Source: Caldinitratiruptor microaerophilus | GTDB lineage: Bacteria > Bacillota > Sulfobacillia > Symbiobacteriales > ZC4RG38 | Assembly: GCF_025999835.1 (NCBI RefSeq) | Contig: NZ_AP025628.1 | Coordinates: 1,612,001 to 1,676,000 of the forward strand | Reading direction: 5' to 3' | DNA length: 64,000 nucleotides | Shown here: positions 46,017 to 58,735 of the stretch, one piece after another | Layout: every line of letters begins with the position of its first letter | How positions within the stretch are numbered: position 1 is the first letter of the stretch | The notes under the pieces: generated by a model | What the model was told of the DNA's origin: nothing | Database searches by the model: none | What the model saw: only the letters and a program-made list of their open reading frames with translations | Made by a program: the position numbers and the translations under genes

Positions 46017-46112
46017 GTTTTCGTCACATTTGTGGGGGAACAGGAACGGGGGCGACATCTCGTCCTGCGCGGCTGCTCGGCGCCGAACCGAAGCCCACGG
46101 GAGTGTCGCCTC

Positions 46113-46871
46113 ATGTCGAGTCGGGATGTTCGGCCCAGCGGGGACCTTCTGGGAGGTCGCACTGTAACAATCGCGTTCCAGCCCATCGTGGATATGTCGA
46201 ATGAAGACATATTCGGCTACGAGGTGCTGGTGCGCGACTCCGGCGGCAGTACCGGCGCCAACGGGCTCGTCCGTCAGGCTCTCGCCCGTGGCGAGATGAA
46301 CCGCCTGGACCGGCGGGTGCTCACCCTGTGCATTCGCCAGAGGACCGTCTGGGCCGGACTCCCGCTCTTCGTGAACATCGGCCCCCTTTCCCACCCGGAT
46401 GTTGACGTCATGGCCCGGGCTTACCGGCGGTGGGTCGTGGCTCACGGACTCGACCCTGCGCGGATCGTGTTCGAGATCAGCGAACGCGTGCCCATCGTCG
46501 GCGGCCCCGGGCTGGCCTGCGCGCGCGCTTTGCGGGCAGCCGGGTTCGGCATCGCCCTGGACGACGTCGGGACTGGCTTGTCGGGACTCGGCGCACTCAT
46601 CGAGGTGAGGCCTGATTACATCAAGGTCGACGGCACCATCACCCGGGCAACCGCCCAGGACCCCTGGGCACAGCAGGTCGTTGCAGGGCTCGTTTCGCTC
46701 GCGGCCAACGTGGGCATCCGGTTGATCGCCGAAGGGATCGAAACGGGGGAGCACTTGCGGGCCGTCATCCGCCTGGGCGTGCGATACGTCCAGGGCTACT
46801 ACCTGGGACGTCCCGTCGTGTACGCAGGCGACCCGACGCCGTTCACCGGCCGTGTCGGGGGCCTGCGGTGA
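46113..46871 (+). CDS. EAL-domain c-di-GMP phosphodiesterase
   Basis: 252 residues from ATG 46113, consisting of one EAL domain. Catalytic residues appear complete: E in GYEVLVR, N in FVNIG, E in FEISER, DD in LDDVGTGLSG, K in YIKVDG, E in AEGIET and Q in VQGYYLGRP. It should hydrolyse c-di-GMP to pGpG. No GGDEF or membrane domain. Its stop is 4 bases before a c-di-GMP-I riboswitch, so the enzyme that degrades c-di-GMP lies next to the RNA that senses it. Confidence 0.9.
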   Translation: MSSRDVRPSGDLLGGRTVTIAFQPIVDMSNEDIFGYEVLVRDSGGSTGANGLVRQALARGEMNRLDRRVLTLCIRQRTVWAGLPLFVNIGPLSHPDVDVMARAYRRWVVAHGLDPARIVFEISERVPIVGGPGLACARALRAAGFGIALDDVGTGLSGLGALIEVRPDYIKVDGTITRATAQDPWAQQVVAGLVSLAANVGIRLIAEGIETGEHLRAVIRLGVRYVQGYYLGRPVVYAGDPTPFTGRVGGLR

Positions 46872-46969: not shown

Positions 46970-47090
46970 CCGTACAGGTGGGGCCTTGGGCTCCTCACAG
47001 TGGCCATTCGAGCAGAGCGCTGGGGGCTCAGGTCCTCCCACCCGGAGGCAAGTGTATCTGCAGGCGGAAGAGAAGGAGCGCTGCACACGG

Positions 47091-47672
47091 ATGATCCTTG
47101 AAGGTGTCCTGATCGGGGTCCTGTGGGGGTGGACGCGACGAGGAACGCTCCGCCGCCTGGTCTCCCTCCCGCTGCGGCAGCCATGGTGGTTCCTGGTCGG
47201 ACTCCTGCTCCAAGAGGGCGCGATCTTGCTGCGAGCTCAGGGATGGCTGCCGCCGTGGTCTGTACCCGTAGCCGTCCTGCTGGCCCACGTCTGCATCATC
47301 GCCGGGCTCGTTGCAAACCGGCACCTACCGGGCACAGGATGGCTGGCCGCCGGGACACTCCTCAACCTCTTGGTCATCGCCGCCCATGGCGGTCGGATGC
47401 CCGTTCTGGACTCCGCCATACGCGCCGCCGGACTCGACGGATTTCGGTGGATGCTGACCGCAGGGGCCGCCAGTAAGTACACCCTTCTTCCAGATGGCGA
47501 TCCGTGGGCGGTCCTGGCAGACAGCATCCCTCTCTACCCTCCTTATTACCCCCTGCGCCGGGTCGCGAGCCTCGGCGACATCGTCGGCATGGTAGGCATG
47601 GCGGAGATCGTCGGCCTCGGCATGCAGGGGCAGGGGAAGCGTTCCCAGGCACCAGCAGGTCGGGTCATCTAG
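47091..47672 (+). CDS. DUF5317-family membrane protein
   Basis: 193 residues from ATG 47091. About four or five membrane helices, with GGRMPVLD in the middle and PLRRVASLGDIVGMVGMAE near the end, the family's usual pattern. Function unknown; in other Bacillota these proteins often lie next to HD-GYP or cell-envelope genes. It is the first gene under the c-di-GMP riboswitch, so its synthesis probably follows c-di-GMP level. Confidence 0.75.
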   Translation: MILEGVLIGVLWGWTRRGTLRRLVSLPLRQPWWFLVGLLLQEGAILLRAQGWLPPWSVPVAVLLAHVCIIAGLVANRHLPGTGWLAAGTLLNLLVIAAHGGRMPVLDSAIRAAGLDGFRWMLTAGAASKYTLLPDGDPWAVLADSIPLYPPYYPLRRVASLGDIVGMVGMAEIVGLGMQGQGKRSQAPAGRVI

Positions 47673-47881: not shown

Positions 47882-47945
47882 TATCCCCATTCCGGTACCG
47901 CATGTCGCCACGGAACCACCGGGACCTGTTGTCGGAGTGATAGGC

Positions 47946-50075
47946 ATGCCGTACCGAGCCTACGCGTTGGCGATCCTGGTCGCGGGTATCGGGGCAGCCA
48001 TCGTAACGAAAGCTGCACTGGAGATTACAGGCCTCCTTGCATTTGATTTTGTTCTTCTTATCTTGTTGAGTTCTCTATTTGAACTTTATCCCGTTTCCCT
48101 CCCGAGTGGAAGACATCTCTCCCTGGGAAGCGCCTTCTCGCTAGCAGGACTCATCTTGCTGGGTCCTTCTCACTACGTCGTGATTGAAGGTATTGCTGGG
48201 CTGTTGGGTATACCACATGGGGAAAAGAGATGGAAGTGGCTATTCATTAGCCTTTCGAATGTGGGCCAATACGTCATCGCAGCGTATCTAACGGCACGAG
48301 TATACGTGGTAGTAGGGGGGCGTCCCGGGGCGCTCGACTGGGCGATCCCTCTTCGGTTGGCAGTCAGTTCGGCCGTCTACATCGTTTCAAACGTCGGATT
48401 GGTCAGCTCGCTCGACTGGGCAACGAACGGCCGTGCTCCTCTCCACACCGCGAAGGCCTTGTTGGAGGACGGTGGCCCCGGGTTCCTGGTTACGGCCGGT
48501 TTCGGGCTCGCGATGGCATATGCTTGGAAGGCCGGCGGCTGGCCTCAGGTGGCACTCCTTTGTTTCGCTATCCTGGCCTTTCGCCATGCCGTGCAACTGT
48601 ACCTGGAGATGAAGCGGCGGTGGCTCAACGCCATCGCGCAGGCGCAGGTCCTCGGGGCGCACGGCCATGCCAAGCTGGCTCAGTCCCACTCCCACATGGT
48701 GGCAGACCTGTCCCGGGAGCTGGCAACCCGGCTTGGGCTTCCCCAGGACGAGATCGACCTCGTGCACGTCGCCGCCCTCGTTCATGACGTCGGCGAGGTC
48801 GAAGTGGCTCCGCGCGTCGTGGCCGCCTACTACCGAGGTGCCGTGCTGACTCTGAACGACGCCCAGGAGTACCAGCGCCATGCCGTCGTCGGGGGCGAGA
48901 TGGCTGCCCGTCTTTCCGGCGTGGATCGGGTCGGCGTCATGGTTCGACACCACCACGAACACTGGGACGGTACCGGCTACCCGGACCGCCTCGCGGGGCA
49001 GGCGATCCCCCTGGGCGCCCGGATCCTGGCCGCCGCGGAGGCGGCCACCATGATCGCCATCCGGGAACCCCACCTCTCTCGGCAGGAGCTCATCCAGAAG
49101 GTGGCCGCGCTGTCTGGTACGGTGCTCGATCCGGCCATCACCCCGAAGTTGATCGAGATCCTCGGCAGCGACGACCCGATCCTCGCCGAACCCGGATCCG
49201 CCGTGCCCACGGGTACGGACATCTCCAAGCAACTGCTCGAAGCGGTGGGAGAGCCCACGTTACTCGAACTCCTCGATGTCGGGCACATCTTGCATTACAA
49301 GGGCGGTCACTTCTACCTGACCACGGGAGAGCCTGCATCACCGATCCATGGCCTTCCGGAACTGGTGGAGCTGTCGCTCCGGCAGGGGCAACCCGTGCGG
49401 CAGCAACTCGCCGACGCGTCCAGGCAACGCATCTACGAGGTCTTCTGTGTACCACTGGCCGAAACAGCCATCGTCCTGATGCTGGATATCACGAACTTGC
49501 TCTCGGCCGAACGGGAACAGCGCCGGCGCCTGCAACAGGCGTACAAGGACGTCCTCTTTGCGGTCACCCGCGGCAAACTGCGCTTCCTGGACGAGACCGA
49601 CCTGCGCGCGCTCCTGACAGAGGGAGAGGTCTTCGCCTCCCTCGCTTTCCAACACCCCAGGCAGGTTCGGGAGTGCCGGCAAGCTGCGATCGACCTGGCC
49701 GCGCAACACGCCCTCGCGGATCGGTCGTTCCCGCTCGCCCTCTGCGTGTCGGAAGCAGTTACCAACGTTCTCAAGCACGCCGGCCGCGGTCAGTTCGAAG
49801 CCAGGGTGATCCACGATGGCATCCGCATCGTGGTCACCGATTCCGGTGCCGGGATTCCTCTGGACATCCTGCCCAACGCGATTCTGGTCGACGGCTTTTC
49901 CACCAAGGAGTCGCTCGGAAAGGGCTTCAACTTGATGCTCCACTACATGGATCGTGTCTGGATTTACACCTCGCCGGAAGGGACGACGGTGGTCCTCGAC
50001 GTTGTTCGCCAGAGAAAAACGGAAACCGGAGATAAATACGACGCCGAGGCAGTCCACGAACCTGAGGGGGGCTGA
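47946..50075 (+). CDS. Membrane HD-GYP domain fused to an RsbW-type anti-sigma kinase domain
   Basis: 709 residues from ATG 47946 (CGGAGTG upstream). The N-terminus has about seven or eight membrane helices to residue 220. An HD-GYP domain follows (about 230-400): VHDVGEVEV and HHHEHWDGTGYP are present, but the usual K of HDIGK is E and the final ADxxDA is AEAATM, so a metal ligand may be lost. The C-terminus (about 570-690) is a HATPase_c_2 fold with SEAVTNVLKHA, DSGAGIP and GKGFNLM, as in RsbW/SpoIIAB. It thus joins a c-di-GMP-binding or -degrading module to an anti-sigma-factor kinase in one chain. It precedes RsbV- and RsbU-like genes, its likely partners. GC content is lower near 48000-48350. 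Confidence 0.85.
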   Translation: MPYRAYALAILVAGIGAAIVTKAALEITGLLAFDFVLLILLSSLFELYPVSLPSGRHLSLGSAFSLAGLILLGPSHYVVIEGIAGLLGIPHGEKRWKWLFISLSNVGQYVIAAYLTARVYVVVGGRPGALDWAIPLRLAVSSAVYIVSNVGLVSSLDWATNGRAPLHTAKALLEDGGPGFLVTAGFGLAMAYAWKAGGWPQVALLCFAILAFRHAVQLYLEMKRRWLNAIAQAQVLGAHGHAKLAQSHSHMVADLSRELATRLGLPQDEIDLVHVAALVHDVGEVEVAPRVVAAYYRGAVLTLNDAQEYQRHAVVGGEMAARLSGVDRVGVMVRHHHEHWDGTGYPDRLAGQAIPLGARILAAAEAATMIAIREPHLSRQELIQKVAALSGTVLDPAITPKLIEILGSDDPILAEPGSAVPTGTDISKQLLEAVGEPTLLELLDVGHILHYKGGHFYLTTGEPASPIHGLPELVELSLRQGQPVRQQLADASRQRIYEVFCVPLAETAIVLMLDITNLLSAEREQRRRLQQAYKDVLFAVTRGKLRFLDETDLRALLTEGEVFASLAFQHPRQVRECRQAAIDLAAQHALADRSFPLALCVSEAVTNVLKHAGRGQFEARVIHDGIRIVVTDSGAGIPLDILPNAILVDGFSTKESLGKGFNLMLHYMDRVWIYTSPEGTTVVLDVVRQRKTETGDKYDAEAVHEPEGG

Positions 50076-50078
50076 ATT

Positions 50079-50378
50079 ATGCTGCGAGCAATCCCGTACC
50101 ATCCAGACGATGACTCCGTTCGGATTCGACTCGAGGGTGAACTGGACATGGATACCTTGCCCGAACTGATCGCCGTGCTCGACAGCGTTGGCGAAGCGGC
50201 AAGGGTGGTGCTGGATTGCGAAGCCCTCGACTTCATCGATTCCACCGGCGTGGGGTATTTGCTGCGATGGGGACTCCGGCGCAAAGCAGAAGGGCGAGAA
50301 CTGCAGTTGATCAATCTCAAACCGGATATCTGGGAAACCCTGAACGTCCTGGGTTTCTTTGCGGTTCTGGCACAGTGA
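50079..50378 (+). CDS. STAS-domain anti-anti-sigma factor (RsbV/SpoIIAA-like)
   Basis: 99 residues, 3 bases after the preceding stop, with GAGGGGG upstream. A single STAS domain; the phosphorylation site Ser lies in DFIDSTGVGYLLRWG. In partner switching the dephosphorylated form binds the anti-sigma kinase and frees the sigma factor. Its kinase would be the C-terminal domain encoded just upstream and its phosphatase the PP2C protein encoded just downstream. Confidence 0.9.
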   Translation: MLRAIPYHPDDDSVRIRLEGELDMDTLPELIAVLDSVGEAARVVLDCEALDFIDSTGVGYLLRWGLRRKAEGRELQLINLKPDIWETLNVLGFFAVLAQ

Positions 50379-50391
50379 CGGGGGAATCGGG

Positions 50392-51207
50392 ATGACACAC
50401 CCAACCAGAAGCAAGACTAACATTCGTTCTGGATCGGGCGACGGTATATTTCATTTTCGGCAGTCCGATCTGGAACTGGCTTACCAGATACAGTTCACTT
50501 TCCTTCACGGTTCCCCGCCTACGATTCCAGACACCTCCCTCTCCGGCGTAAGCCTGCCCGCCCAGGTCATGGGGGGGGACTACTTCGACTTCCTCCTCAC
50601 GCCCCGCGGGACGGTGCGAATGTGCGTTGGCGACGTCATGGGGAAGGGCCTGGCTGCCTCCATGCTCATGCTCATGGCGCGCGTAGCCATCCGAGCCCTG
50701 TCGGACATCGCCGACTCACCGGGCACACTACTGCACGAGGCAAACCGGATCCTCTACCCCGATTTCCATCGCCTCGGGTCCTTTCTCACACTGTGCTTCA
50801 TTGAATACCACCCGGCGACGCGAGCCCTGGCGTGCGCCAACGCCGGTCACCTCCGTCCGCTGATTTACCGTTCTGCGAGAGAGATCGTGGAAGTCGACGT
50901 CAACGGAATGATGATGGGCGTCCTGCCGGATTCCTCCTACGAAGTGACCTCCCTCACCCTGTCACCCGGCGACACGGTGATCCTCTACTCGGACGGCGTG
51001 ATCGAAGCCACCAGGCCCGACCGACAACCGATCGGGAAGCGCGGATTCTACGAGATACTCCGCGGTCTGCCCCCGGAACTTCCCCTTCCGGTTCTCCAAG
51101 AGCGGGTGCTGCAGGCGTTGCGGCAGCACACGGGGGCTCAGCCCCAGCGCGACGACATGACGCTTGCCTTCCTGCGAGCAGGCGCCCCGGCTGATCAGAA
51201 GGTCTAG
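50392..51207 (+). CDS. PP2C/SpoIIE-type serine phosphatase (RsbU-like)
   Basis: 271 residues from ATG 50392. SpoIIE-family metal-site motifs: GGDYFD, GDVMGKGLAASMLM, NAGHLRPL, YSDGVIEA and RDDMTLA. No sensory N-terminal domain beyond about 60 residues. Expected to remove phosphate from the STAS protein, opposing the HD-GYP-linked kinase. The gap from STAS is 13 bases, so the genes form one operon. Confidence 0.9.
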   Translation: MTHPTRSKTNIRSGSGDGIFHFRQSDLELAYQIQFTFLHGSPPTIPDTSLSGVSLPAQVMGGDYFDFLLTPRGTVRMCVGDVMGKGLAASMLMLMARVAIRALSDIADSPGTLLHEANRILYPDFHRLGSFLTLCFIEYHPATRALACANAGHLRPLIYRSAREIVEVDVNGMMMGVLPDSSYEVTSLTLSPGDTVILYSDGVIEATRPDRQPIGKRGFYEILRGLPPELPLPVLQERVLQALRQHTGAQPQRDDMTLAFLRAGAPADQKV

Positions 51208-51230
51208 CCGCCAGAACGGAGGTGGGGGTC

Positions 51231-52424
51231 GTGCTCGGGTTCCTGTTTCGGTGGCGTCGAAAGCAAGAGGCACCCGGCCTCCAGAACCAGTCCGGCTCGT
51301 CCCGCGCCACCCAACCCGAATGGCTGGGCTCCTCGCCTGCGTCGCGCCAAGATGGGTACGTGGAACTCGTGGGATCCCAGCTGCGCGTCGTGGAACCCAC
51401 AGGCCCGGGGGGCGATTGGCCTCTCGTGGTCCCCGGCCCCGGGGTCACTGTCCGCTGCAACGGGGTCGTGATGACCGCGCCCTTTGTCGCAACCAAGGCA
51501 CACCGCATCGAAGTCGAGGTGGAGACAGGCGAACAGGAGCTTCGTCCCCGCCACTTCCGGGTCGAGCTGGCTTCCGACCGCATGACAGCAGAGCTATGGC
51601 TGGAATCCGCCGAGACCCAGCGTGAAGTCCTGGTGAATCCGGGTAAGGTCCGCGTTCTGGAACTGAAGACGCAGACGGTCAGGGAGACACGTCCGAACCC
51701 ACCGGTCGAGGCAATCCTCTCGGAACTGGAGCGCCTCGGTGTGACCGAAGGGATCGACCGCGCGGCTGTCGAAAGTTTGTTGAGCCAACCGGTAGAAACG
51801 CGAGGGATCATCGCCAGGGGGACACCGCCCACTCCGCCCCGCGACGCCAGGGTCGAGTGGATGGTTGAAACCGGCCACGCCACCATCGTCAAGCCGGGCA
51901 CGCTGCTGGCCAAGGTGTTCCCTTCCGAGCCGGGCAAGCCGGGTAGAGACCTCACCGGCAACATCGTTCCGCCTCCCGCCGCCCCTCCGGTATCGATCAC
52001 CCTCGCGGCGGGAGAAGGAACGACTCTGACTCCGGACAGGACCGGGATCGTCGCCATTACAGAGGGACGGCCAGCCATCGAAGAACAGGATGGCACCATC
52101 CGTGTCAAGATCATCCCCGTGCTCGTGCATCGCGACGACCTGTCGGCGAACACCGGCACCATCTTCTTTCACGGAGATGTGCACGTCCTCGGGCACGTCA
52201 TGGAGGGCACCCACATCGCCTGTGACGGTGATATCTGGATCGAGGGAAATGTGGAGCGTTCGCTCATCCATGCCGGCGGACGCGCCACGCTGAAAGGACG
52301 AGTGATTCGAAGCCGCATCCGCGTCGGCAAACCCGCCGCCCAGACGTCAGGGCTCCTTCCCAAGCTGATCGGTCTGCGCGATCTGCTGAGCCAACTCGAA
52401 ACGGCATCCGTTCAAGTTCTCCAC
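51231..52424 (+). pseudogene. DUF342 (FapA-like) protein, 5' part, interrupted by a transposon
   Basis: 398 codons from GTG 51231 (GGAGGTG upstream; GTG 51222 is less well placed). Contains the DUF342 pattern: N-terminal domain, TPPTPPRDARVEWMVE, AKVFPSEPGKPGRDLTGN and a beta-helix with repeated turns (DVHVLGHVMEGTHIACDGDIWIEGN in short). At 52424 the gene meets the transposon, adding 11 foreign codons to a stop at 52457. Joining this part to 56016 keeps frame and gives about 610 residues, the family's normal length. DUF342 proteins are cytoplasmic polymerising or scaffolding proteins, often linked to c-di-GMP or envelope functions. Product now lacks its coiled coil and last beta-helix turns. 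Confidence 0.88.
52420..52424. repeat. Left copy of 5-bp target duplication TCCAC
   Basis: TCCAC ends at 52424, immediately before the element's terminal TGTT; the second copy is at 56011-56015. Confidence 0.85.
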
Positions 52425-52508
52425 TGTTTTCGCCCACGTTATTTGTCGCCGCGTTGACCGGAGTGGTTGGCGCTGGAAGGGGACCAGGAGATAGGTGTGG
52501 AAGAGCCT

Positions 52509-52532
52509 GGGGAGGTCGAGCCTCCCCGTTTT
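52509..52532 (+). terminator. Intrinsic terminator near the transposon left end
   Basis: GGGGAGG, loop TCGAG, CCTCCCC, then GTTTTC. Positioned to stop read-through from the interrupted host operon into the element. Confidence 0.75.
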
Positions 52533-52557
52533 CGCGTGGGAGGTGGAAATAAAGACA

Positions 52558-52598
52558 CCTGCCCCGGGCCGAATTTCCCAGCCGAGCCCCGGGGCAGG
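52558..52598 (+). other. Second hairpin before the transposon's first gene
   Basis: Arms CCTGCCCCGGG (52558-52568) and CCCGGGGCAGG (52588-52598). Followed at once by AGAGG/CCTCT arms around the ribosome-binding site (52602-52616). May act as attenuator or keep the first gene's translation low. Confidence 0.5.
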
Positions 52599-52619
52599 CT
52601 TCAGAGGAGTTACCTCTGC

Positions 52620-53234
52620 GTGTCCATCATACTGCCCCTTGCGGTCTCAGTCAAAGCGTACTTACGCCGGTACGGCCGTGACGGGCCCGCACTGGCGCTT
52701 CGTTGTGCAGGCTGCGGCCGGCAGATGCGGAAACATGGCGCCCACCATCGGTCGGCGGTCACTCGCCGGCGCATCTACCGCATTCCCATCTACCGCTGGT
52801 TCTGTCCCCGGTGCAAGCACACGTGCTCGGTCTTGCCGGACTTTCTACGTCCGTACGCCCGCTTTGTCACGCTGCTGCGGGAAGTGGTCGTGCGCCGGCG
52901 CCTTCAGCGAGGAAGGTCGTGGAGGGATCTCACCTGGGAAATCAGTTCACCGGCGGTCAGTGTGGTGTCGGAGCGCACGCTGCGCCGGTGGGTGCGCACG
53001 GTTCGCAGTATCGCGGGGAATTGGGGACAGTTCCTGACCGCCTGGCTGCTGGAACAGCGACCCGCCGTCGACGTTTTCACGCTGGTCCCCCGCCACGAGG
53101 GTCCCGACGCCACCTTTCATTTTTTGCTCGCGCTGGGTGACTGGCTCCGGCGGCAGATGTCCGTGGACCCTGCCCGCCACCGTGGGCTGTTTGCGTTCCT
53201 GAACGGCTTTTGCGAGGCCCCGGCGCCTCTGTGA
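52620..53234 (+). CDS. Transposon-borne zinc-ribbon and helix-turn-helix protein
   Basis: 204 residues from GTG 52620 with GAGGAG 9 bases upstream. A zinc ribbon (CAGCGRQM with CPRCKHTC, about 26-66) leads into a helix-turn-helix region (RTLRRWVRTVR) and a helical rest. It resembles the DUF6431 group found with such elements in Bacillota; family assignment is by pattern only. Probably binds DNA and helps in target choice or regulation of transposition; it could equally be cargo. A start at 52467 would lie in the terminal region and lacks a ribosome-binding site. Confidence 0.65.
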   Translation: MSIILPLAVSVKAYLRRYGRDGPALALRCAGCGRQMRKHGAHHRSAVTRRRIYRIPIYRWFCPRCKHTCSVLPDFLRPYARFVTLLREVVVRRRLQRGRSWRDLTWEISSPAVSVVSERTLRRWVRTVRSIAGNWGQFLTAWLLEQRPAVDVFTLVPRHEGPDATFHFLLALGDWLRRQMSVDPARHRGLFAFLNGFCEAPAPL

Positions 53235-53329
53235 GGTACGGCTCCCCCCCACCACAAACTTTGTCCCTCCCGGCTGGCTCGGCGTGCCGGCCATAATGGC
53301 GGCAACGACGCCAGCAGGGGAGGGATTCC

Positions 53330-54715
53330 ATGGACGAGCAGCAGCGGGAAGAGATCGCCACGTTCCGCTGGAGCCTCATCGCCCCCGTACTGACCCAGAA
53401 CCTGAGCCCGTCCGAGCGCCAGCGCCTGTTGCGGGAGATCGCCGGGCACCCGCACGAGATCCCTTCCAGTGACAAGACCCGAGTCGGGCTCAGGACGCTG
53501 CAGCGCTGGGTCCAGGCCTACCGGCAGCACGGGTTCGAGGGGCTCAAACCGCACACCCGGGCGGATGCGGACCAGGGCCGGGCCGTTCCCCCGGAGGTCC
53601 TGGAAGCGGCGATCGCCTTGCGGCGGGCGGTGCCCGACCGTAGTGTGCAACAGATCATCGCCTTGCTCGAGCTGGACGGAAAGGTCGCACCCGGGCGTCT
53701 CAAACGCACCACCCTGGGCCGCTACCTGGCCCGGGCAGGCTGCACCCGCCAGGAGTTGCGCAGCAAAGCCGCCCGGAGTTTGCTCCGCCGGTTTGAGGCC
53801 CAACACCGCAACGACCTGTGGCAAGGAGACGTCCTGCACGCCCTGTCGCTGCCGGTGCCGGGACAACCCGGGAAGCGGCGCCAAGTCTACCTCATGGCTT
53901 TCCTCGACGACCATAGCCGAGTCGTTTACGGCCAGATGTATTTCGAGGAGAAGCTCCCCCGCCTGGAGGACTGCCTCAAACGCACCATCCTCCGCTACGG
54001 CCTGCCCCGCCAGATCTACGTGGACAACGGGGCGATCTACTCCACCCGCCACCTGGCCCGGATCTGCGCCAAGCTCGGGATCCGCCTCAGCCACTCCCGC
54101 CCCTACCGACCCCAGGGGCGGGGAAAGGTTGAAAAGTTTTTCCAGTACGTCCGCCGCAGCTTTGTACCCGAAGCGCACGCGCTGGTCGAAGCCGGCCAGC
54201 TCCGCACCCTGGACGAACTCAACGAGTTCTTCTGGGCCTGGCTCGAGGTGGCCTACCTCAGTCGCCCCCACGGCAGCACCCACCAGACCCCCCGCCAGCG
54301 GTTCGAGGCGGACACCGAGCCCTTGCGCCGCATCGACCCTACGGCCCTGCGGGAGGTGTTCCTCTGGGAGGAGCAGCGGGTCGTCGACAAGACCGGATGC
54401 TTCTCCCTGCATGGGAACCGCTACGAGGTCGACGCCGCCCTCAGCGGCCACCGGGTGCTCCTGCGCTACGACCCCTACGACCTCAGCCAGATCCAGGTCT
54501 GGCACGAGGGAAAGCGTTTCCCGGACGCTGCCCCCCTCCAGCTCCGCCGCACTCACCACCACGCCGTCCCTGCCCCGGCCCAACCCCCGTCCAGCGACGG
54601 GATGAACTTCCTCACCCTGGCCCGCAAGCACCACGAGGCCGAGAAGCAGCGCCGCCTGGGTCAGACCTCTTACGCTCGCCTGGTCGGCCACAAGGACGGT
54701 GAGCCGTCACGCTGA
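53330..54715 (+). CDS. DDE (rve-type) transposase
   Basis: 461 residues from ATG 53330 with GGGGAGGG upstream. An N-terminal helix-turn-helix region (LRTLQRWVQAYRQHGFEGL) is followed by an integrase-core catalytic domain with D in LWQGDVLH, D in YVDNGAIY and E in GRGKVEKFFQ, a complete DDE triad, then a C-terminal beta-barrel and basic tail as in MuA/TniA-type transposases. It cuts and joins transposon ends. Overlaps the ATPase gene. Confidence 0.92.
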   Translation: MDEQQREEIATFRWSLIAPVLTQNLSPSERQRLLREIAGHPHEIPSSDKTRVGLRTLQRWVQAYRQHGFEGLKPHTRADADQGRAVPPEVLEAAIALRRAVPDRSVQQIIALLELDGKVAPGRLKRTTLGRYLARAGCTRQELRSKAARSLLRRFEAQHRNDLWQGDVLHALSLPVPGQPGKRRQVYLMAFLDDHSRVVYGQMYFEEKLPRLEDCLKRTILRYGLPRQIYVDNGAIYSTRHLARICAKLGIRLSHSRPYRPQGRGKVEKFFQYVRRSFVPEAHALVEAGQLRTLDELNEFFWAWLEVAYLSRPHGSTHQTPRQRFEADTEPLRRIDPTALREVFLWEEQRVVDKTGCFSLHGNRYEVDAALSGHRVLLRYDPYDLSQIQVWHEGKRFPDAAPLQLRRTHHHAVPAPAQPPSSDGMNFLTLARKHHEAEKQRRLGQTSYARLVGHKDGEPSR

Positions 54716-55545
54716 CCGAGTACTTCGGCCTCAAAGCGGTGCCCTTCGCCAGGGAGATTCCCACCGACCGGCTGTTCCCCGCTCCCCAGCACCAGGAACT
54801 GCTTGCTCGCCTCCAGTACGCCATCCGCCACCGCGCGTTCGCGGTCGTCACGGGTGAGGTCGGCGCCGGGAAGTCCACCGCCATCCGGGCCCTGTACGAT
54901 CAGCTCGACCGGACCCGCCACCTGTTCGTGTACATCGCCGACTCCCGTCTCACCCCCAGCGCGTTCTACCGAGACGTGCTCACCCAGCTTGGGGTGGCCC
55001 CGCCTTCTCTGTTCCACGGGCGGGAGGTGAAACGGCTTTTCGAGCGCACCATCCTGGACGGTTACACCACCAACGGCCGTCAGCCAGTGATCGTCATCGA
55101 CGAGGCCCACCTCCTCAGCGGCGCCATGCTCCAGGAGGTCCGCTTCCTCCTGAACTTCCACATGGACTCCATCTCGCCGCTGACGTTCATCCTCGCCGGC
55201 CAGAGCGAACTCCGGGGGCTGCTCCGGCTTCGCACCTTCGAGGCCATCGCCCAGCGGGTTCAGGTGCGCTTCCACCTCACCGGCCTCGGGGAGGCCGAGA
55301 CTCTGGCCTACATCCAGCACCATCTCCACCTGGCCGGCGCCGACCGGCCCCTCTTCTCCGAGCAGGCCCTGCGCAAGATCGTCACGGAGTCCCGGGGCAT
55401 CCCGCGGGTCATCAACACGATCTGCACGAGCTGCCTCCTGGACGCTTGCGCCCATGACCAGCGCCTAGTGGAGGAGGCCCACGTCGAGCGGGTGCTGCTC
55501 GAGCTGCAGGATACCCAGGCCCCCAGAGGAGGTAGCCCGTGGTGA
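54712..55545 (+). CDS. ExeA-like AAA+ ATPase, transposition target regulator
   Basis: 277 residues if it starts at CTG 54712. The frame is closed by a TGA at 54700-54702, and the next usable standard start is GTG 54739, but the conserved family opening (TEYFGLKAVPF) lies before it. CTG would overlap the transposase TGA as CTGA, implying translational coupling and a rare start codon. Walker A GEVGAGKS, Walker B PVIVIDEAHLL and sensor I LAGQSEL are visible. ExeA/TnsC/TniB/MuB-like ATPases bind DNA and direct the transposase to target. Confidence 0.88.
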   Translation: MTEYFGLKAVPFAREIPTDRLFPAPQHQELLARLQYAIRHRAFAVVTGEVGAGKSTAIRALYDQLDRTRHLFVYIADSRLTPSAFYRDVLTQLGVAPPSLFHGREVKRLFERTILDGYTTNGRQPVIVIDEAHLLSGAMLQEVRFLLNFHMDSISPLTFILAGQSELRGLLRLRTFEAIAQRVQVRFHLTGLGEAETLAYIQHHLHLAGADRPLFSEQALRKIVTESRGIPRVINTICTSCLLDACAHDQRLVEEAHVERVLLELQDTQAPRGGSPW

Positions 55546-55865
55546 CAGATTCTGGCCTGCAACACGCCGGGGTTTCGCTGCGGCTTTACGGGTACGAGAT
55601 CACCGACCTGCTCGACCTGCTGGAGGCCGCCATCCGGCAGGCCACGACCGGAGATGGGGTCCGGCGCGGCCAGGCGGTCACGGCGTTCATCCTGAGTTAC
55701 CGTCTGCTCCACCGGTTACGGAACCTGAAGAGCCGGCCCACGTGCCGGCTCGACCTTCCCGTCTTCCGGTACATCGAGGACTACGAGGCTTGGTGGTGGC
55801 GCCTCTACCGGGAGTTCGTTCACAGCCCCGGGGTCAACCACCCGTACGGCCCCGGCGGATTCTAG
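55539..55865 (+). CDS. Small transposon-borne protein of unknown function
   Basis: 108 residues from GTG 55539 with AGAGGAGG upstream, overlapping the ATPase gene end by 7 bases. Mostly helical with an aromatic, Trp/Tyr-rich section (YIEDYEAWWWRLYREF). No signal, membrane helix or recognised domain. Its coupling to the ATPase suggests a transposition accessory rather than random cargo. Confidence 0.6.
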   Translation: MVTDSGLQHAGVSLRLYGYEITDLLDLLEAAIRQATTGDGVRRGQAVTAFILSYRLLHRLRNLKSRPTCRLDLPVFRYIEDYEAWWWRLYREFVHSPGVNHPYGPGGF

Positions 55866-56010
55866 TGGCTGCCGGCCCTGCATTTCGGACTCTGGGGCGC
55901 ATCCTTACCACGGGCTGCGCCCCTTCAGCGCCAGTGGGCCGGTCACATCTCATGAACGGCCATGACATCGTCGCTGGTCACCGGAGCGACAAATAACGCG
56001 GTCAGCAACA

Positions 56011-56015
56011 TCCAC
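56011..56015. repeat. Right copy of 5-bp target duplication TCCAC
   Basis: Second TCCAC directly after the element's terminal AACA. Followed in frame by the rest of the DUF342 gene. Confidence 0.85.
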
Positions 56016-56654
56016 CATCCACGTTACTCGCAGGTAGCACAGGGCAAGCTGAGGCCCGTTTTGAACCTCCTTCTTCAGCACCGTTTTACGCAATTCGAAT
56101 CGTTTCTCAGTGCCATCCGGGGCGGGCTGGCGGATGCATCCAGCTCTGCTCGCGCCCACCTGGAAGAACTGACTCAGTCGCTGCAAGCTCTCGCCGACAC
56201 GAACAACGACGAGGTCACGCTGGAGTACCTGCAGAATACCATCCGCCTCGCATCGGAGAGCATCGATTCGATCAAGAAATGGGCCAACCCGCCCACGGAC
56301 AATCGCGTGGAACTCTACTACTCTTTCGCATCCGAATTGGAATGCACAGGACCTCTCGTTGTCAGCGGACCGGGCATTGAAAGCACGATAATTCACGCTA
56401 CAGGACCCGTGGACATCCACGGCTACATGCGCGGCGGATACATTAAATGCGCGCGAAACGTGAGCATCGGCCAGATCGGTACTCCAGCAGGAAAGACGAC
56501 CGAAGTGGTCGTTCCAGAGGGTTATTCGATCCTGGCAAATAAAGTATATCCGAACACGATTCTTCAAGTCGGCCAGATCAAGCATAAATTCCAACGCGAA
56601 CACTCTATGGTGCAGTTTTCAGCGGCGACCGCGGAAACATATCGCCACGGATGA
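56016..56654 (+). pseudogene. DUF342 (FapA-like) protein, 3' part
   Basis: 212 codons plus stop that continue the frame broken at 52424: ...VQVLH, then HPRYSQVAQGKLR. It encodes a coiled coil (about 56030-56280) and the last beta-helix section (LVVSGPGIESTIIHATGPVDIHG in short; VSIGQIGTPAGK). The open frame extends back into the transposon to 55962, so a chimeric product starting with transposon-end residues could be made. Its lower GC content matches the 48.0-48.4 kb section. Followed by a STAS gene 30 bases on. Confidence 0.85.
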
Positions 56655-57053: not shown

Positions 57054-58466
57054 TCACCAGTCCTCCCCTGTTTCCGCCTGAGCCCGGAGCCACAGGGCAC
57101 ATTCTACCCGCTTTTTCACCAGAGCACAGCCGACCGGGTCCGGCTGGTGGATGTCGCCGGTGACGAGCTCCGCGTTGGCGTGGCAACCACCGCTACAGTA
57201 GTAACGGACCCAGCACTCCCTGCAACCGGCCTTGGAGTACACATGACAGTTGACCAGTTCCTGCTGGACCTCGGTGGCGGTGATCCCGGTCCACACGGTG
57301 CCCAGCTTGAACCGAGGCCGCCCCACGAACTGGTGGCACGGGTACAGGTCGCCTTCGGGGGTCACCGCGAGGTACTGCAGACCCGCACCGCAGCCCTGAA
57401 TCCGCCGGGGAAGGCAGGGACCCTGGTCCGCCTCCAGCGCAAAGTGGTGGAAGACCGCCACCTTACCCTGTCGCTGACGTTCTGCCAAGATCGCCGCGAG
57501 CCGTTCATACTCTGCCGCCACCGCCGGGATGTGCTCCGGGCGCAGGGCGTTGGGATCCTCCGGGCGCAACACCACGGGCTCGATGGCAAAATGCGGCGCG
57601 CCGATGACATCCATCAGGTGTACCGCGTCCTCGGCGAAATCCAGGTTCCGACTGGTGAAAGTGCCCCGCACCACCGCGTAAGCTCCCGCCCCGGAAACCC
57701 CCTGGGCAGCACCGTGGGCCCAGGCCGGTACGCCACCCGGTGCCCGCCTGGCCAACACGGCCCGTACCGCCTGCGCTACCCCGTCGTAAGAACCGCTGCG
57801 CATGGCATCGTGCACCCATGGCCGGCCATCGACGCTCAGGATGAGGCTCACCCGTTCACGGTCCAGGAAGTCCAGGATTTCCGGAGTCAGCAAGGTACCG
57901 TTGGTGGTCAGGGTAAAGACCATCTCCTTGCCCGCGGCAGCGGCGGCCTGCCGGGCATAGCGAACGGTGTCCTGCACCACGGGCCAGTTGAGTAGGGGTT
58001 CCCCGCCGAAGAAGTCCACCTCGCACACCGGCCGCTCCCGGGAGAGCCGGAGCAACAGGTCTACGGCCTGCCGGGCCACCGCCGCCGGCATGAGGGCACC
58101 GGGGCCCCCGTAGCGGCCCTTGTCGGCAAAGCAGTACGTACAGGACAGGTTGCAGGCGTGGGCAACGTTCAGGCAGATGGCCCGCAGAGGCTCGTCGCCC
58201 CGGGGCAGTAGGTCCCCCCAGTCGGGCTCCGGGGAGAAGAGCCAGCCCCGCTCGACCAGTTCATCCAACTCGGCCAGCGCCTCGTCCACGGCTTCGGCGC
58301 CGAAGCGGCCCCTGAGGGGAGCCAGGGTTTCCGGAGTGCAGTCGTCGGGGTAGTACTCCAAAAGCTCCCAGACCAGGTCATCAACCTGGTGCAGGCTGCC
58401 GCTGTGCACGTCCAGGACCAGTTTGCGGCCGTGCACTTCAAACCGGTGGATCTGCCCCCTGGACAA
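57054..58466 (-). CDS. SCIFF peptide maturase (radical SAM, thioether-forming)
   Basis: 470 residues from TTG 58466 (AAGGGAG nine bases upstream), giving the usual start IHRFEVHGRKLVLDVHSG. Upstream open sequence overlaps the SCIFF gene and is not used. Radical SAM motif HACNLSCTYCFADKG near 105; FFGGEPLLNW; SPASM cysteines from CGAG and YPCH to CRECWVRYYCSGGC and VGCAL for two auxiliary clusters. Such enzymes link Cys thiols of the SCIFF peptide to other residues, making a sactipeptide/ranthipeptide. The peptide gene lies 84 bases upstream on the same strand. Confidence 0.93.
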   Translation of the reverse strand: MSRGQIHRFEVHGRKLVLDVHSGSLHQVDDLVWELLEYYPDDCTPETLAPLRGRFGAEAVDEALAELDELVERGWLFSPEPDWGDLLPRGDEPLRAICLNVAHACNLSCTYCFADKGRYGGPGALMPAAVARQAVDLLLRLSRERPVCEVDFFGGEPLLNWPVVQDTVRYARQAAAAAGKEMVFTLTTNGTLLTPEILDFLDRERVSLILSVDGRPWVHDAMRSGSYDGVAQAVRAVLARRAPGGVPAWAHGAAQGVSGAGAYAVVRGTFTSRNLDFAEDAVHLMDVIGAPHFAIEPVVLRPEDPNALRPEHIPAVAAEYERLAAILAERQRQGKVAVFHHFALEADQGPCLPRRIQGCGAGLQYLAVTPEGDLYPCHQFVGRPRFKLGTVWTGITATEVQQELVNCHVYSKAGCRECWVRYYCSGGCHANAELVTGDIHQPDPVGCALVKKRVECALWLRAQAETGEDW

Positions 58467-58549
58467 GAGCGAAGACTCCCTTCGGACGACGCCAGGCGCG
58501 AGCAGGGCGGGTTGCGGCCACTGGGCCAGGGCCCGCCCCCCGTCCTGCT

Positions 58550-58735
58550 CTAACCGGCCGTTGTGACGGCGCTCGTGGTGGAGTTCAGCAGGGTGCTCAC
58601 CGGGCAGACGATGTTTCCCACGGTACATGAGGTCTTACAGGCCGACTGGCAGGAGACGGCACACTCGGTGCAGCCCCTGTACTTCGCCGTTTCCTGCAGG
58701 GCTGGGGCCACCACCGTCTTGATGTGCTTGGCCAC
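58550..58735 (-). CDS. SCIFF ranthipeptide precursor (six cysteines in forty-five)
   Basis: 61 residues from GTG 58735. AKHIKTV at the start and SCQSACKTSCTVGN at 28-41 are diagnostic. Cysteines at 22, 25, 29, 33, 37 and 44 make the six of the family. The usual peptide ends soon after the last Cys; here a Ser/Thr-rich tail of 17 residues follows. The maturase gene follows on the same strand. SCIFF is widespread in Clostridia; one proposed role is signalling, and the mature product's function is still unclear. Confidence 0.93.
   Translation of the reverse strand: MAKHIKTVVAPALQETAKYRGCTECAVSCQSACKTSCTVGNIVCPVSTLLNSTTSAVTTAG

Follow-up and report, generated by a model that had tools for sequence, protein, structure and literature searches.

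A membrane protein joining an altered HD-GYP-fold domain to a SpoIIAB/RsbW-type kinase domain in Caldinitratiruptor microaerophilus

The kinase gene ending at position 50075 in the 64,000-nucleotide stretch of the C. microaerophilus genome analyzed here (the window) raises the question of what an HD-GYP domain with changed catalytic residues does when it is carried on the same chain as an anti-sigma-factor type of kinase. The original prediction was that the domain senses c-di-GMP instead of hydrolyzing it, and that the ligand could gate phosphorylation of an adjacent STAS protein and thus the release of a sigma factor. Based on the results presented below, we give about an even chance to a different reading, in which the protein is a membrane-anchored partner-switching serine kinase with a non-hydrolyzing HD relay and FapA is a likelier output than a sigma factor.

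Domain layout of the kinase protein

The kinase gene was a single unbroken ORF (47937-50075, +), which would encode 712 amino acids if started at GTG. The ATG at 47946 is the likely start, because the N-termini of the relatives read 'MP.Y'. The chain runs from a membrane domain through an HD-GYP-fold and a PAS-like domain to a kinase domain of SpoIIAB/RsbW fold. Pfam matched HD_5 at residues 247-369 and HATPase_c_2 at residues 574-687, and AlphaFold2, given an alignment of 35 sequences (mean pLDDT 82), placed the boundaries at 4-225 (membrane), 245-415 (HD), 447-517 (PAS-like), 519-543 (helix) and 562-692 (GHKL). The intact frame, the Pfam matches and the model therefore bear out the expectation that membrane helices, HD-GYP and kinase share one chain; the PAS-like domain between HD and kinase had been missed. 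Full-length homologues have the same domain order, and therefore the fusion is not due to chance. The parts of the gene are as follows.

47946-48611 (+): N-terminal membrane domain, residues ~4-225; predicted ECF S-component fold, MASE9-like
48654-49181 (+): HD-GYP-fold domain with a remodelled active site; Pfam HD_5 E 1.3e-22, PmGH Z 24.1
48783-48797, 48951-48983, 49035-49052 and 49059-49076 (+): HD-domain motifs HDVGE, HHEHWDGTGYP, AEAATM and IREPHL, respectively
49275-49487 (+): PAS-like domain, residues ~447-517; predicted beta-beta-alpha-beta-beta-beta order
49491-49580 (+): signalling helix (519-543 in the AlphaFold2 model) and family motif REQRRRLQQAYKDVLFAVTRGKL, ahead of the kinase domain
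49620-50012 (+): GHKL serine-kinase domain of SpoIIAB/RsbW type; HATPase_c_2 E 1.3e-11, SpoIIAB Z 16.7

The membrane domain modelled alone had a pLDDT of 92. Its best 22 structural matches were all ECF S-components or CbiM/NikM, with Z between 10 and 14, and the next unrelated fold followed at Z 7.8. The Foldseek E-values were weak (best 0.05), a sequence-profile search of the domain against solved structures gave no match, and Pfam MASE9 matched two of 32 relatives (best E 3.2e-5), the window protein not being among them. A connection between 5TMR/LytS-type receptors and the S-component fold was drawn in a paper of 2024 (PMC11109136). The predicted fold suggests a role in small-molecule sensing, and the membrane domain would be the likely sensor of the system.

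Residues ~447-517 were without a match to the Pfam PAS models, and the PAS-like domain was conserved in all homologues of the membrane-HD-PAS-HATPase layout. The region of REQRRRLQQAYKDVLFAVTRGKL is a conserved family motif, Y-[RK]-DV-x3-T-x-GK. At the C-terminus, the N, G1 and G2 ATP boxes are intact (E606/N610, D635/G637/G639 and G661/G663) and invariant in 35 homologues. The closest structures to this domain were SpoIIAB and RsbW (Z 15.2 for the latter), and the NCBIfam models ranked top were RsbA, SpoIIAB and RsbW, with scores below the cut-offs of the curated families (SpoIIAB, 30.9 bits vs. 135; RsbW, 24.3 vs. 145). The complete RsbW-type ATPase that had been proposed is thus present in its boxes, its profile match and its fold. 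The GFST motif could point to an RsbT-like rather than an RsbW-like lid, an alternative against which the NCBIfam ranking stands.

Active site of the HD-GYP-fold domain and its relatives

The HD part resembled PmGH most closely, followed by PA4781 (Z 22.9) and DvhD (Z 22.3), and the motifs HD (283-284), HHE (339-341) and GYP (347-349) are present. HDVGE (residues 283-287), where HDIGK was expected, and AEAATM (residues 367-372) were read straight from the DNA without a frameshift. The final Asp of ADxxDA is gone (T371), as had been noticed, but that description was incomplete, the metal-ligand Asp being replaced as well. In the alignment to PmGH, the six metal ligands H189, H221, D222, H250, H276 and H277 are retained as H251, H283, D284, H315, H339 and H340, while D183, K225, D305 and D308 have become A245, E287, E368 and T371, and R314, K317 and R192 have become E377, L380 and M254. 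All three of the catalytic or second-shell residues D183, K225 and D308 are therefore replaced and the guanine contacts R314 and K317 are absent, while the Glu at the position of D305 could potentially still bind metal. It was reported that Ala at D183, K225 or D308 abolishes the activity of PmGH, that D305A, though crippling, and E185A spare some activity, and that R314A or K317A affect activity little (PMC4159591). Because the three essential residues are all replaced, the HD domain has probably lost c-di-GMP hydrolysis, which agrees with the original prediction.

The other half of that prediction, that the degenerate domain is a c-di-GMP receptor gating the kinase, fared less well and is in our view improbable. 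The best precedent is DvhD, a degenerate HD-GYP protein and proven c-di-GMP receptor, which lost metal ligands and kept the nucleotide contacts, and which binds c-di-GMP without metal and shifts its helices (PMC13090378). The window protein has the reverse pattern as judged by alignment, with the metal ligands kept and the nucleotide contacts mostly lost. The canonical-site contacts of DvhD, i.e., Y523, L577, K582, Y621, M646, R650 and Y652, correspond to L247, Leu, Ala, Y348, Ile, E377 and His, so that two of the seven are kept (the GYP tyrosine and one leucine). The arginine that corresponds to R314 in PmGH and R650 in DvhD is E377, and with E287 and E377 there is negative charge close to the expected phosphate and guanine positions. 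The tyrosine Y348 speaks for a receptor, as do the EAL gene upstream, the 11 GGDEF proteins encoded in the genome and the near harmlessness of R314A and K317A in PmGH; the GGDEF proteins and the adjacent EAL gene keep c-di-GMP in play. On paper, c-di-GMP binding by the HD domain is weakened, and binding in the canonical mode is probably not to be expected.

The relatives indicate which of these changes are private. The fusion was found in ~36 non-duplicate Bacillota loci, and no homologue of it among 154 genomes of the same class. In an even draw of 398 genomes of the phylum, the C-terminal half occurred in 45 and one long single-frame match to the HD-PAS-HATPase profile in nine, a number that includes the window protein and another protein whose kinase domain is truncated. 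The GTDB genome scan added Aeribacillus, Desulfallas, Brevibacillus, Aquibacillus, Peribacillus, Paenibacillus, Saccharibacillus, Cytobacillus and others, whereas the viral contigs scanned gave just a distant HD domain and the plasmid records just HD-GYP matches. Four layouts were recognized by domain mapping: membrane-HD-PAS-HATPase, GAF-HD-HATPase, separate HD and PAS-HATPase proteins, and HATPase without HD. The nearest homologues are at most ~32% identical to the window protein over the full length, and in the kinase-domain tree it sits on a long branch whose placement is not firm; function can therefore be transferred from the homologues only loosely.

D183 and R314 were absent in every membrane-HD-PAS-HATPase homologue, where D305 is mostly Asn or Ser and occasionally Asp, and D308 is Asp or Glu except in the window protein (Thr) and in the protein of locus L069 (Val). 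K225 was retained in the fused homologues other than the window protein (Glu), L123 (Asn) and L069, and only the window protein and one other (with Asn) changed it while keeping the His/Asp metal ligands. H189, H221, D222, H250, H276 and H277 were conserved in all fused homologues but L069. Apart from the window protein, most of the fused relatives have a shortened segment past D308, which also counts against c-di-GMP reception, as does the family-wide absence of R314 and D183. Since the loss of these two residues is common to the whole fused family, the window protein did not recently turn from an enzyme into a c-di-GMP sensor. Judged from these residues, the HD domain lost c-di-GMP chemistry family-wide, and in the window protein the changes are more extensive than in most other members.

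The kinases of this family in halophilic Bacillaceae at L090:5596-6510, L103:5590-6522 and L107:5722-6669 gave no HD or PAS matches, and by eye their N-termini might be a vestigial HD helix bundle. Separate HD proteins beside PP2C genes (L047:5910-7079, L048:6655-7818, L050, L051, L052 and L113) also have altered sites, in which V, T, I or L replaces K225, A or N replaces D305, and R314 is missing.

The six kept metal ligands could signify a working metal center with another substrate, and the HD domain would then be a metal-dependent phosphohydrolase that informs the kinase through its product or its turnover. HD superfamily members hydrolyze many phosphoesters, and the five His and D222 are conserved in the fused homologues except L069. 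Residual activity of D305A in PmGH (PMC4159591) also fits such an enzyme, D305 being a conservative Glu here. However, D183, K225 and D308, essential in PmGH, are replaced, and L069 dispenses with the entire center yet keeps the gene cluster, so that we assign a low probability to a hydrolase of this kind. The protein at L069:5476-6882, from Salimicrobium flavidum, has no HD metal ligand left and no membrane domain, and its frame is still open; the locus retains kinase, STAS, PP2C and FapA. For the window protein, the most likely role of the HD domain with its six metal ligands would be that of a structural or allosteric relay, and together with the PAS-like domain it would pass the signal from the membrane sensor to the kinase.

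Gene neighborhood and candidate output

The genes around the kinase gene, including the STAS gene that had been noted beside it and a PP2C phosphatase gene in addition, are as follows.

46032-46871 (+): EAL-domain protein with catalytic-looking motifs, upstream; EAL E 4.6e-44
47090-47672 (+), within 46986-47672: DUF5317 membrane protein, conserved upstream neighbor; DUF5317 E 7e-27
50079-50378 (+): STAS-domain protein (FIDSTGVG), presumed phospho-acceptor of the kinase; STAS_2 E 2.3e-14
50392-51207 (+): SpoIIE/RsbU-type PP2C phosphatase, presumed to undo the phosphorylation; SpoIIE E 1.5e-47
51222-52457 (+): FapA (DUF342), N-terminal part, severed by a transposon; FapA_N E 1.7e-26, FapA E 4.4e-14
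52437-55998: transposon splitting FapA, with 23-nt imperfect terminal inverted repeats at 52437-52459 and 55976-55998
55962-56654 (+): C-terminal remnant of FapA past the transposon; beta-solenoid E 7.2e-6, under the gathering score
56664-56966 (+): second STAS protein (FLDSTGVG); STAS_2 E 2.1e-19

Clustering of the neighbors gave a recurrent set of genes, i.e., DUF5317, kinase, STAS, SpoIIE-type PP2C, FapA and second STAS, all of which the window has in this order. Among the 36 non-duplicate fusion loci, with partners counted on the same strand and within 6.5 kb, STAS was found in 34, PP2C in 33 and FapA in 31; the DUF5317 cluster was found in 21 fusion loci, and the FapA-STAS pair recurs across homologous loci. 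FapA was also present in 8/8 GAF-HD-HATPase loci and in 0/6 proteobacterial clusters with related kinase domains. A receiver gene also lies upstream of the kinase in the window, and the EAL gene has counterparts near few other fusion loci (L046, L060, L082, L089 and L097). The open-licence papers searched contained no paper on DUF5317 and no description of an HD-GYP/HATPase_c_2 partner-switch architecture with STAS/SpoIIE or DUF342; the conserved Bacillota cluster around the kinase is apparently undescribed so far. Further downstream, the ORF at 57054-58628 (-) resembles a radical-SAM/SPASM peptide-maturation enzyme with a CNLSCTYC motif.

The order of these genes is consistent with a partner switch in which the SpoIIAB/RsbW-type domain would phosphorylate the neighboring STAS protein, the PP2C would dephosphorylate it, and free STAS would act on a target. 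A sigma factor as this target had been part of the original prediction, but a profile for sigma region 2, built from the 22 sigma factors of this genome and recovering all of them, found nothing in either the window or the 40 fusion loci scanned. A classical sigma-factor switch would thus need a sigma factor encoded elsewhere. The genome does have 22 sigma-70 region 2 matches and the kinase domain is closest to SpoIIAB and RsbW by fold and sequence; however, the closest sigma match is ~170 kb from the window and the scores are far under the curated RsbW/SpoIIAB cut-offs, which leaves the classical arrangement a poor candidate. The only other strong HATPase_c_2 kinase of the genome is SpoIIAB itself, beside a sigma-factor gene. 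From the neighborhood, FapA is more likely to be the output than a sigma factor, and it is the best candidate for the target of free STAS.

Another FapA gene of this genome adjoins a sigma-factor gene, ~4 kb past flhA, in an apparent flagellar gene cluster whose FliP and FlhA were recognized by eye. In Vibrio, EIIAGlc binds FapA solely when EIIAGlc is dephosphorylated (PMC6877527), which may serve as a loose precedent for phosphorylation-gated control. A broader proposal, that Bacillota have a widespread module in which an S-component-fold receptor acts through a non-catalytic HD-GYP domain on the kinase and STAS acts on FapA, as a polarity or motility scaffold, and not on sigma, is tentative and we hold it to be rather doubtful.

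Because FapA is split in this genome, the output arm may be broken and the module impaired in this copy. The C-terminal remnant fell into one BLAST cluster with the intact FapA of other loci. Between the two parts, the transposon has ORFs resembling an integrase-type transposase (53330-54715) and an AAA ATPase (54739-55545), and inspection by eye showed no clear target-site duplication. The split gene raises the possibility that the whole locus is decaying, so that in this strain the module would be on its way to losing function, and neutral drift would account for the unusual HD residues. In line with this, the window protein has an HD-to-kinase identity ratio of 0.72, the second lowest of 36 (L069 being lowest with 0.64), and no relative was found in the 154 genomes of the class. 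On the other hand, the ORFs of the kinase, STAS, PP2C and the two membrane genes are unbroken and have kept their motifs, and the metal ligands survive. We regard decay as unlikely and prefer the membrane-anchored kinase with an HD relay.

Comparison with known systems

The window protein is like the HD-GYP phosphodiesterases PmGH, PA4781 and RpfG in its fold, in the HD, HHE and GYP motifs and in the six metal ligands, and differs from them in the replacement of D183, K225, D305, D308, R314 and K317 and in the fusion to a serine kinase. Like DvhD of Desulfovibrio vulgaris, it is a membrane signalling protein that contains PAS and a degenerate HD-GYP domain. However, in DvhD the metal ligands of the HD and HH motifs are lost and the nucleotide contacts kept, the opposite of the window protein; the PAS domain of DvhD stands before the HD domain and not after it, and its output is a periplasmic signal instead of a kinase.

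SpoIIAB and RsbW are alike in the kinase fold, the ATP boxes and the adjacent STAS and PP2C genes, whereas the window protein is a multidomain membrane protein that has no nearby sigma gene and scores well short of the equivalog cut-offs. The known role of partner switches is mainly the control of sigma factors, and a conserved version in Bacillota tied to FapA would, if true, extend them to a target in cell structure or motility.

The GAF-HD-GYP-HATPase fusions of the Thermincola type and the split HD/PAS-HATPase pairs (L045, L047-L054, L057 and L058) are alike in the linkage of HD and kinase, with STAS, PP2C and FapA nearby. Unlike the window protein, the GAF-type fusions keep the canonical D183, K225, D305, D308 and R314, while K225, D305, D308 and R314 are retained in the split HDs, and an S-component-like membrane domain was not detected in either. 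The graded HD domains in one cluster, canonical, altered or gone, amount to a natural experiment in the conversion of a second-messenger enzyme into a relay.

The receptors of S-component fold of the 5TMR/LytS type, described in a paper without mention of MASE9 or HD-GYP (PMC11109136), and MASE9 itself are alike in the predicted fold of the membrane domain. Unlike them, the window protein joins the S-component-like domain to HD, PAS and a serine kinase.
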